Part shown: positions 1 through 2,820 of the stretch, one piece after another
Numbering within the stretch: the first letter of the stretch is position 1
How the letters are laid out: each line of letters starts with the position of its first letter
From: Bryobacterales bacterium
GTDB lineage: Bacteria; Acidobacteriota; Terriglobia; Bryobacterales; Bryobacteraceae
Length of the DNA stretch: 64,000 nt
Reading direction: 5' to 3'
Assembly: GCA_003136675.1 (NCBI GenBank)
Contig: PLFE01000151.1
Location: forward strand, 4,709 to 68,708
Translations under genes and position numbers: made by a program
The notes under the pieces: generated by a model
Databases searched by the model: none
What the model saw: the letters and a program-made list of their open reading frames with translations, nothing else
What the model was told of the DNA's origin: nothing

Positions 1-507
1 GATCCCGGCACAGGCGGCCTCGGAGGAGATATCCCGCGGCGCTTCCGTTTTGATTCCGGAAGCGGCGGACCCCGCCAATACGAACGCTGAGGCCGTCAGC
101 CCTCCAATCGTGTCCGCGTCCCTGGCTTTCAACGCATAAGGCACCGCCACCAGTGCGACCCGCGCCTCTTCCGCCTGTCCCGCCACCTGCATCCCCAGCC
201 ATCGCGCCGCGCCATCGGCAAACAGTTGCGCCGGCAGGCCCTCGTTGGTGGTTACCCCAAGCGTCACTATGTATCGGCCCCGTTCGTCCGGCGTAACGTT
301 TTGCGTTTCCATCCACAGCGGAGCGCCGCCCTCGCGATCCTTATAGAGAAGGAACGTGACACCCACGACCCCGGTCAAAGGTTCGCTTTTCGCGTCCCTC
401 AGAACTCCCCCGTAGTTCACCAGCATCGGCACCGAATTCTGCGCCAGCGCCGGCAACATGAGAGCCAGGGCTACCATCAGAGCTATTCCAACCTTCGAGC
501 TTTTCAT
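1..507 (-). CDS. Secreted protein of unknown function, C-terminus beyond the window
   Basis: Reading from the ATG at 507-505 towards base 1 gives 169 uninterrupted codons with no stop, so the gene runs off the left edge. The first 22 residues form a signal peptide (MKSSKVGIALMVALALMLPALA, cleavage after ALA-Q predicted). The mature part has a beta-rich segment (NYGGVLRDAKSEPLTG, then VTFLLYKDREGGAPLW), a block with NEGLPAQLFADGAARWLG, and the phrase VPYALKARDADTIGGL followed by ASAFV. That phrase recurs in exported acidobacterial proteins of unknown role, as I remember them. It is divergent from the winged-helix sensor at 634, and the 126 bases between carry a striking repeat ladder. I cannot assign a function. 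Confidence 0.8.
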   Translation of the reverse strand, partial: MKSSKVGIALMVALALMLPALAQNSVPMLVNYGGVLRDAKSEPLTGVVGVTFLLYKDREGGAPLWMETQNVTPDERGRYIVTLGVTTNEGLPAQLFADGAARWLGMQVAGQAEEARVALVAVPYALKARDADTIGGLTASAFVLAGSAASGIKTEAPRDISSEAACAGI

Positions 508-549
508 GTGACTCGCTCCCTGCTGGAACCGAAGCTAACATCGCGGTCG

Positions 550-608
550 ATGAAAGTGATGAAATCCCGTTCAAATTCCCTTCAAATTGCCATCAAACTA
601 AATGAAAT
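550..608. promoter_or_regulatory. Ladder of six WTSAAA direct repeats, mostly 11 bp apart
   Basis: Six boxes of the form A/T-T-G/C-AAA lie in the same orientation at 550 (ATGAAAG), 559 (ATGAAAT), 570 (TTCAAAT), 581 (TTCAAAT), 592 (ATCAAAC) and 602 (ATGAAAT). The steps are 9, 11, 11, 11 and 10 bases. OmpR/PhoB-type winged helices are known to bind tandem direct repeats with an 11-bp repeat length. The gene that starts 26 bases downstream encodes such a domain, so autoregulation or control of the divergent secreted-protein gene is inferred. Confidence 0.5.
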
Positions 609-633
609 CAATAAGATTGGGAAAAGTAGTAAG

Positions 634-2820
634 ATGCCCATCAGAGGAGGGAACCGGCTGAGCAGACGAGAGCCATTCGAGAGCGGCGCACGCCGACAGT
701 ACCGGTTTGGAGAGTACGAACTGGACCTGGAACGCGGCGGGCTCCGGCGCGCCGGTGAAGAGATCACGCTGCGGGCCAAGTCCTTCGACGTGCTGGCGGT
801 TCTGGTTGAACGGAATGGCCGGCTGGTGACTAAAGCCGATCTCATCGACGCGGTCTGGCCGGATACTTCGGTCGCGGACAACTCGCTGGCCCAGTGCATC
901 CTTGAAATCCGGCGCGCGATCGACGACGAAGCCCAGCAAATGATCCGTACGGTGGCCCGGCGCGGCTATATCTTCGAGGCCGCGGTCACATCTCCGCCGG
1001 TGGAGTTTCCGAAGACGCCGGCGCTGGCCCCCATGTTGGTAGAGCCACCCGCGCGGCGGCTGAATCGGAGGGTTCTGGGATGGGCCGCTCTGACATTGGC
1101 GGTGGCGCTTGCTGCCATCCTGGCGCTGGCGACGATCCGCCGGCCAGTTCCCAACGCAGCGCTTTCCTTTACCCAGATCACCAGCTTCACCGATTCGGCC
1201 GTGAATCCCGTGTTGTCCCCCGACGGCAAAATGCTGGCCTTCTACCGCAGTGACCGTTCCTTCTTTACTTCAGACCAGGTCTTCGTCAAGATGCTTCCTG
1301 ACGGCGAGCCGGTGCAATTGACGCACGACCCCAGACCAAAGTACGGCCTGGCATTCTCACCCGACGGCTCATTGATTGCCTACACAGCGATCAGTGACAC
1401 CGGCTTCGATACATACACGGTTTCGTCTCTAGGAGGAGAGTCGCGACTATTTCTGCCCAACGCCGCGGGTCTCACCTGGCTGGACGCCCACACGCTGCTG
1501 TTCTCCGAAACGAAGCGTCTTCCCAATATGGGCATTGTCACCAGCACCGAAAGCCGGTCCGAGTCGCGGGAAATCTATTTTCCGGCATACCAGCGCGGCA
1601 TGGCGCACTATTCCTACGCTTCGCCCGATCGTCAATCGGTGCTTGTGGTCGAAATGAATCCCGATTGGCTGCCCTGCCGCCTGGTTCCCTGGACGGGGTC
1701 GAGCGCGGGCCGGCAGGTGGGTCCTTCCGGAGCATGCACTTCAGCGGCCTGGTCTCCGGATGGAGAATGGATGTATTTCGGGGCGGCGGTAAATGGAAAG
1801 CGGCATTTATGGCGGCAGCATTTCCCCAACGGGCAGCCCGAACAAATCACCTTCGGGCCGGCTGAGGAGGACGGCATCGCGGTTGCTCCCGACGGCCGTT
1901 CACTCATTACGTCCGTCGCCATGAAACAGGGCGCGGTCTGGATTCACGACGCCAAAGGCGACCGCGCCGTTTCGACGGAAGGGTATGCGCATGGCGCGGA
2001 CGACGACTTCAGCCCGCCATTGTTCTCCGGCGATGGTAAGCGCCTTTACTACCTTTCGAGCCACTCGCCCGATTCCGCGACCGAACTACGGCGACTGGAT
2101 CTCGACTCGGGCCAAAGCGGCCCCCTGCTCCCGGGAATCTCGATCCGTACCTTTGATATCTCGCGCGACGAAAAAGAGGTGGTCTTCGCAACGCAACCTG
2201 ACGGCCAAACTTCGCAGTTGTGGTTGGCGCCGCTCGATCGTAGCGGGGCCCCCCGCCGGATTGCGGCGGGGGGCGAGGCATTTCCGCATTTTGGTCCGGA
2301 TGGGCAAGTGCTGTTCCGGATGAGCGATGGGAAAGCGCTCTATTTGGAACGGATGAGGTTGGATGGCAGCGGCAGTATAAAGGTTGTGCCGTTCCAGATT
2401 CTTAATTTCAAAATCGCCTCTCCCGACCGCCGTTACGCCGTAGTATTCGCGCCCGCGCTTCAGCCAAGTGCCGGACACGTGGTCGATACTCTGGCAATCC
2501 CCATCGCGGGAGGTCCGGTACGTCGAATTTGCGCGCTCTGCGAGGTCGCGTGGTCCGCCGACGGCAGGTACCTCTACCTGACCATGGGCGCGTCTTCGCG
2601 CGACGATCCGGCTGGTAAGACGCTGGCGATTCCGGTGCCGCCGGGAGAAAGCTTGCCAGCGTTACCAGAGGCGGGAATCCGCGATGGGGCGGAGGCGCTG
2701 GAGATTCCAGGGGCGAGGATCGTGGCACATTCCGACATCTCCCCCGGGCCGGACCCTTCGGTTTACGCTTACGTGCAAGCCGCGGTACACGCCAATTTGT
2801 TTCGCATCGCACTTCGGTGA
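634..2820 (+). CDS. OmpR-type winged-helix sensor fused to a TolB-like beta-propeller
   Basis: A 728-residue one-component regulator. Residues about 20-116 form a Trans_reg_C winged helix (RYRFGEYELDLE, VLVERNGRLVTKADLIDAVW, then RTVARRGYIFEA). A proline-rich linker leads to one membrane segment near residues 145-167 (VLGWAALTLAVALAAILALA). The rest is a WD40/PD40 propeller with repeated SPDGKMLAF-type strands. The cytoplasmic DNA-binding head and extracytoplasmic propeller suggest a CadC-like membrane transcription factor; the ligand is unknown. I chose ATG 634 because the domain starts just after it; longer reading frames upstream overlap the promoter and the divergent gene. An AGGAGG lies inside the first codons (645-650), so a slightly later non-ATG start is possible. 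Confidence 0.85.
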   Translation: MPIRGGNRLSRREPFESGARRQYRFGEYELDLERGGLRRAGEEITLRAKSFDVLAVLVERNGRLVTKADLIDAVWPDTSVADNSLAQCILEIRRAIDDEAQQMIRTVARRGYIFEAAVTSPPVEFPKTPALAPMLVEPPARRLNRRVLGWAALTLAVALAAILALATIRRPVPNAALSFTQITSFTDSAVNPVLSPDGKMLAFYRSDRSFFTSDQVFVKMLPDGEPVQLTHDPRPKYGLAFSPDGSLIAYTAISDTGFDTYTVSSLGGESRLFLPNAAGLTWLDAHTLLFSETKRLPNMGIVTSTESRSESREIYFPAYQRGMAHYSYASPDRQSVLVVEMNPDWLPCRLVPWTGSSAGRQVGPSGACTSAAWSPDGEWMYFGAAVNGKRHLWRQHFPNGQPEQITFGPAEEDGIAVAPDGRSLITSVAMKQGAVWIHDAKGDRAVSTEGYAHGADDDFSPPLFSGDGKRLYYLSSHSPDSATELRRLDLDSGQSGPLLPGISIRTFDISRDEKEVVFATQPDGQTSQLWLAPLDRSGAPRRIAAGGEAFPHFGPDGQVLFRMSDGKALYLERMRLDGSGSIKVVPFQILNFKIASPDRRYAVVFAPALQPSAGHVVDTLAIPIAGGPVRRICALCEVAWSADGRYLYLTMGASSRDDPAGKTLAIPVPPGESLPALPEAGIRDGAEALEIPGARIVAHSDISPGPDPSVYAYVQAAVHANLFRIALR

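Follow-up and report, generated by a model that had tools for sequence, protein, structure and literature searches.

In a Bryobacterales bacterium, a ladder of short direct repeats with an 11-bp period lies upstream of a gene for a winged-helix regulator with a predicted membrane anchor, is conserved with the winged-helix clade of that regulator whatever sensor the protein carries, and keeps a near-fixed distance to the regulator gene. We consider it highly probable, judging by sequence comparison, that this ladder is the operator to which the winged helix encoded directly to its right would bind. The window, that is, the whole stretch of DNA that was analysed, comprises 64,000 nt of contig PLFE01000151.1 (GCA_003136675.1; positions 4,709–68,708, forward strand). 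The initial annotation had read the repeats as sites for an OmpR-type protein, and the core of that reading, an OmpR/ToxR-type tandem operator, appears to stand; what changes is the main target, which would be the regulator's own gene, and the scope, as such ladders appear to be recurrent in the class. The features of the locus, in window coordinates, are as follows.

1–507, minus strand: divergent gene for a large exported protein, with its start ATG at 507 and its distal part, which has NHL repeats, outside the window
531–541, minus strand: GAAGCTAACAT, a candidate −10 of the left gene, kept next to the ladder in all five propeller-type genes
550–555, plus strand: rung 1, ATGAAA, followed by a short first step of 9 bp
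559–564, plus strand: rung 2, ATGAAA, which opens the conserved 11-bp register
570–575, plus strand: rung 3, TTCAAA
581–586, plus strand: rung 4, TTCAAA
592–597, plus strand: rung 5, ATCAAA
602–607, plus strand: rung 6, ATGAAA, at a 10-bp step from rung 5
630–635, plus strand: TAAGAT, possible −10 of the regulator gene, within GTAAGATGC or GTAAAATGC, seen in 3/5 propeller-type genes
645–650, plus strand: AGGAGG ribosome-binding site, seven bases before CTG 658
658–2820, plus strand: regulator gene, encoding a winged helix (about 754–975), a membrane helix (about 1087–1140) and a propeller (about 1168–2811)

On the plus strand, the six WTSAAA boxes start at 550, 559, 570, 581, 592 and 602, so that successive steps measure 9, 11, 11, 11 and 10 bp, just as the initial annotation had them. 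Rungs 5 and 6 together read TCAAA-N5-TGAAA (593–607), an exact match to TNAAA-N5-TNAAA. The longest same-strand chain of WTSAAA with steps of 9–12 bp has six members at the ladder and no more than two elsewhere in the 64-kb window on either strand, and such a chain never exceeded three in 20,000 first-order Markov sequences that matched the 126-bp intergenic region in composition. As WTSAAA was defined post hoc, after the sequence had been seen, the fair test is a motif-free self-match, in which the best stretch of 33 self-comparisons at each lag is set against 200 dinucleotide shuffles. At the ladder, lag 11 gave 24/33 matches (z 5.6, p 0.005, the floor for 200 shuffles). The shuffles, together with the orthologues described below, rule out a chance pattern, and a genome-wide 11-bp periodicity is ruled out by 221 control genes, which average z −0.08 at lag 11. 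The irregular first step is itself kept, at 8–9 bp, in orthologues (e.g. GAAGTAGTGAAA or GAAGTAACGAAA), so on this comparison it is not noise.

Three WTSAAA boxes at exact 11-bp steps are unique to the ladder within the 6.1-Mb genome. A further ladder target in the same genome was sought, and the one match, inside a gene, against one for the reversed-pattern control, was judged to be chance. Elsewhere in 237 genomes of the family the triple has five more matches, against three for the reversed pattern. One of these five (L052 1501–1528; G034:C95:26881–26908) falls exactly at the start of another winged-helix gene, which is divergent to an exported-protein gene and whose upstream region is significant at lag 11.

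The ladder is intergenic with either possible start of the regulator, CTG 658 or ATG 634; gene callers would put the start at ATG 634. We take CTG 658 to be probably the true start because NTG-AGY-AG is common to all five propeller-type clade genes (CTG in the window gene and G138; TTG, GTG and ATG in the others) and because of the position of the AGGAGG before it. ATG 634 would then be part of GTAAGATGC, found in the window gene and G138 and replaced by GTAAAATGC in G135, which may be a −10 element; a consensus scan of 480–700 found no sigma-70 consensus promoter. We considered and rejected the possibility that the ladder is coding sequence: although the ATGs at 550 and 559 are in frame with the regulator in an open frame, the propeller-type genes start downstream at NTG-AGY-AG, and stops within the last 60 bp before the winged helix in 3/7 of the NB-ARC-type upstreams inspected likewise count against it.

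The encoded protein agrees with the initial annotation's account of an OmpR-type winged helix joined through a membrane helix to a propeller. Pfam Trans_reg_C matches the winged helix at 61.3 bits (cut-off 26.2), and PD40 propeller repeats are also matched. A structure model places a helix at 152–169, where pLDDT is partly below 50, and the propeller after it, from about 179; the model is poor in the winged helix, with only five sequences aligned, three of them lacking this domain. Searched against solved structures, the winged-helix profile found CadC first (4.4e-16), followed by response regulators and ToxR (2.4e-11). This profile match sharpens the OmpR-type assignment: among solved structures, the ToxR-like CadC is the closest to this winged helix.

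The initial annotation had proposed looking for the ladder before orthologous genes, with its absence there counting as refutation. The winged helix was searched against 237 genomes of the family, and a ten-sequence profile was then run against 257 genomes of the order and 399 of the class, sets that overlap. Profile scores above 125 define a clade of 18 genes, including the window gene, that spans genera and orders; no clade member was found in the genus mate G001, whose genome is 71% complete. A Gibbs-type search for a tandem unit in the 250 bp upstream of the 18 genes put 17 of them in one register, GTA-NYGAAA-N5-NYGAAA and so on, with the reservation that the NB-ARC gene upstreams resemble one another partly by descent. 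The sole member without a ladder is G220:C279 (L101), and the outcome that the initial annotation would have taken as refutation did not occur. The information per unit is 4.64 bits at period 11, compared with 2.98 at 9, 3.64 at 10, 3.47 at 12 and 3.20 at 13. Thus the clade has what is expected of a tandem operator, direct repeats one helical turn apart that are conserved with the regulator (17/18, period 11 the best of 9–13). The rungs read ATGAAAAAACG TTGAAACTTCA GTGAAATATGA CTGAAC in G135, ACGAAAGATTG GTGAAACAGTT CCGAAAGATTG GTGAAAG in G326, and ACGAAATCC ATGAAATCGGG CCGAAAAAGCG ACGAAATTCCG ATGAAAC in G195, the last with steps of 9, 11, 11 and 11 as in the window. The motif-free test at lag 11 was significant (p ≤ 0.05) for 12/18 clade upstreams, or 10/18 on reshuffling, and for 0/18 both further upstream and inside the gene. 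In the NB-ARC-type genes (L096–L099, L142, L144), another GTAAC or GTAGC element lies about 22 bp, or two rungs, upstream of the first rung, a spacing that may reflect a skipped rung in their ladder.

Beyond the winged helix, clade members carry a propeller, TPRs, or an NB-ARC ATPase plus TPRs, and all three types have the ladder. The nearest relatives of the window propeller, by contrast, belong to acidobacterial Ser/Thr kinases with the same membrane helix and PD40 propeller (42–59% identical over about 131–727; kinase domain confirmed by Pfam in three), in which the protein kinase replaces the winged helix and no ladder precedes the gene. None of 11 kinase-propeller genes reached the 95% control level for the ladder, and 0/13 loci were significant in the motif-free test, the 13 including the non-kinase L055 with a wrongly anchored start and two loci that are probably one gene. 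These tests rule out the ladder as a feature of the propeller. Because it is present with propeller, NB-ARC or TPR partners and absent before kinase-propeller genes, the ladder, on these comparisons, belongs to the winged helix. A TGAAG ladder seen by eye at L055, which has the same propeller and another type of winged helix, was withdrawn when the properly anchored locus scored 5.85 against a threshold of 10.72. Comparison of window 1087–2811 with L018, L019, L056 and L057 shows a single sensor part joined to either of two output domains, a winged helix or a Ser/Thr kinase.

The ladder lies between two divergent genes, and the initial annotation had given it co-operative control of the secreted-protein gene on the left as its main role. 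That assignment is not supported, the distance of the ladder to the regulator being better kept. Measured from the first rung in register, the winged helix lies 124–143 bp away in five propeller types and 78–92 bp away in seven NB-ARC types, while the left start codon lies 51–94 bp and 129–207 bp away, respectively; G326, a second kind of propeller gene that was set apart, has 233 bp to the winged helix and 304 bp to the left start. The asymmetric half-site points towards the regulator, and ladders also occur before many other winged-helix genes (see below). As the position and orientation of the ladder are tied more tightly to the regulator promoter than to the left gene, we propose that autoregulation is primary, with control of the secreted left gene a plausible extra.

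That the ladder might chiefly serve the exported-protein gene, the regulator gene merely lying beside it, is nevertheless the most serious alternative, if an unlikely one. A left gene is present, divergent and nearly always exported in 15/15 clade members scored (G195, G309 and G220:C279 not in the count), one encoding a membrane protein, and the left-side element is conserved in 5/5 propeller types. Against this reading stand the more variable distance to the left gene and the direction of the half-sites, the other strand passing the 95% level in only 9/78 test genes. The left genes are, moreover, of different families: NHL repeats in the window, a family of about 200 residues without a Pfam match in most NB-ARC types, a cupin, and a Vgb-lyase-like propeller. 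Less probable again is that a different OmpR-type protein of the cell, for instance a two-component response regulator, uses the ladder as its operator and acts on both genes. Trans_reg_C matches number 16 in the genome, several with receiver domains, and response regulators also bind 11-bp repeats (PMC9019756); yet the ladder is unique in the genome, and across genera and orders it tracks the winged-helix clade and not the propeller. That phased A/T runs merely bend the promoter DNA, with no specific protein involved, we regard as very improbable. The mean step of 10.4 bp is near the helical repeat and the ladder has 33% G+C in a window of 59.5%, but its A/T runs extend for just 4–5 bases, whereas curved DNA would call for A-tracts of a certain length, phased near 10.5 bp with the other letters free. 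The conserved period of 11 also clearly beats 10, conserved rungs include C and G (ACGAAA, CCGAAA), and control upstreams have no such period.

Beside the left gene, L047 545–5215, which overlaps the window start, holds a 797-aa paralogue with the same repeats, on the same strand and after the left gene, and these large, propeller-like exported proteins may together make up a single unit. The left gene is cut by a run of N just outside the window.

If the ladder is the regulator's own operator, copies of the regulator would line up head to tail along a single face of the DNA, each 11-bp rung taking one winged helix and TNAAA serving as the half-site; this model parallels ToxR- and PhoB-type proteins on two or more half-sites. 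The rungs adjoining the regulator promoter would overlap its −35 region, and the regulator would therefore act first on its own gene, most likely by activating it. Since the rungs furthest to the left coincide with the expected −35 position of the divergent exported-protein gene, this gene is probably also controlled. Beyond the membrane, the propeller would sense a signal and thereby set the number of anchored copies gathered on the ladder. The bound copies would presumably co-operate, and the promoter positions used here are likewise predicted.

The closest published parallels come from Vibrio, where the ToxR box is TNAAA-N5-TNAAA and the TcpP site TGTAA-N6-TGTAA (PMC4829181). Like ToxR and TcpP, the window regulator is predicted to be a membrane-anchored winged helix, and its half-sites are in tandem. 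The ladder half-site TNAAA is identical to half of the ToxR box, and window 593–607 is an exact ToxR box with its 10-bp step, while the other regular steps have the 11-bp period of the TcpP site. At ompU the ToxR box lies at −51 to −37 (PMC7496328); for a transcription start near 642, window 593–607 would occupy about −49 to −35. Unlike the Vibrio sites as described there, the ladder, which lies at the promoter of the regulator itself, comprises as many as six half-sites, with 11 bp the usual step; the C-terminal part of the window regulator is a propeller, and the phylum is remote. An exact ToxR-box half-site in so remote a phylum bears on the age of that recognition.

The typical targets of OmpR-type proteins are direct repeats of varying sequence, number and spacing (PMC7380067). 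The PHO boxes of Streptomyces are 11-bp direct repeats (PMC9019756), head to tail and with one winged helix per repeat, as would be the case here, whereas the window regulator is predicted to be membrane-anchored and is without receiver domain or phosphorylation, and its half-site letters differ. E. coli CadC (5ju7), the nearest solved relative of the winged helix, is also one-component and membrane-anchored, but its site, TTAxxxxT, is head to head (PMC5430869), with no ladder, and its sensor is other than the window propeller. Membrane-bound transcription regulators are described as frequent in Acidobacteriae (PMC10269533). A literature search in which few subscription journals were represented found no paper on acidobacterial operators of this kind.

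The pattern extends beyond the clade. In a first set of 59 other winged-helix genes, meant as controls, 20/59 were significant at lag 11 (p ≤ 0.05; 19/59 on reshuffling), as were 3/58 further upstream and 0/59 inside the gene. A replication set of 80 further winged-helix genes, reduced to 78 because one was too short and another was not kept, was significant at lag 11 in 22/78, followed by lags 12 (12/78) and 9 (9/78); the other 56/78 gave no lag-11 signal. Unrelated control genes from twenty stretches and the window, their starts called crudely, gave 7/221 at lag 11. The counts entered into Fisher's test were 12/18 for the clade, 20/59 for the first set and 7/221 for the controls; the replication set against the same controls gave Fisher p 4e-9. 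A matrix trained on the first 77 upstreams, with the core YTGAAAR in 11 bp, was tested on the 78 unseen genes, and 24/78 scored over the 95% and 18/78 over the 99% control level, compared with 2/64 and 0/64 divergent controls. With one gene per cluster, the figures were 22/59 and 17/59. These results suggest that acidobacterial one-component winged helices frequently have a self-operator built of 11-bp half-sites, even if our tests reveal none in the majority.

We give an even chance to a broader proposal, that an acidobacterial one-component winged helix and the 11-bp tandem operator at the promoter of its gene travel and evolve together as a unit, plugged onto a propeller, an NB-ARC ATPase or TPRs, the sensors being shared with kinases. 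Were this so, genomes would spell out matched pairs of recognition helix and half-site gene by gene, a natural data set for the winged-helix recognition code. Acidobacteria are common in soil and have many membrane-bound regulators; for such a regulator, an operator legible in the DNA next to its gene would provide a first target without cultivation. Many paralogues seem to have a version of their own, so that sequence alone could yield large numbers of matched winged helices and half-sites, which would allow a data-based test of how a very common DNA-binding fold chooses its sequence. In several of the paralogues (L196, L213, L185 and L177), an element like GAAGTCCTT or GAGTCCTT stands at the left edge of the repeats, reminiscent of the GAAGTA of the clade.
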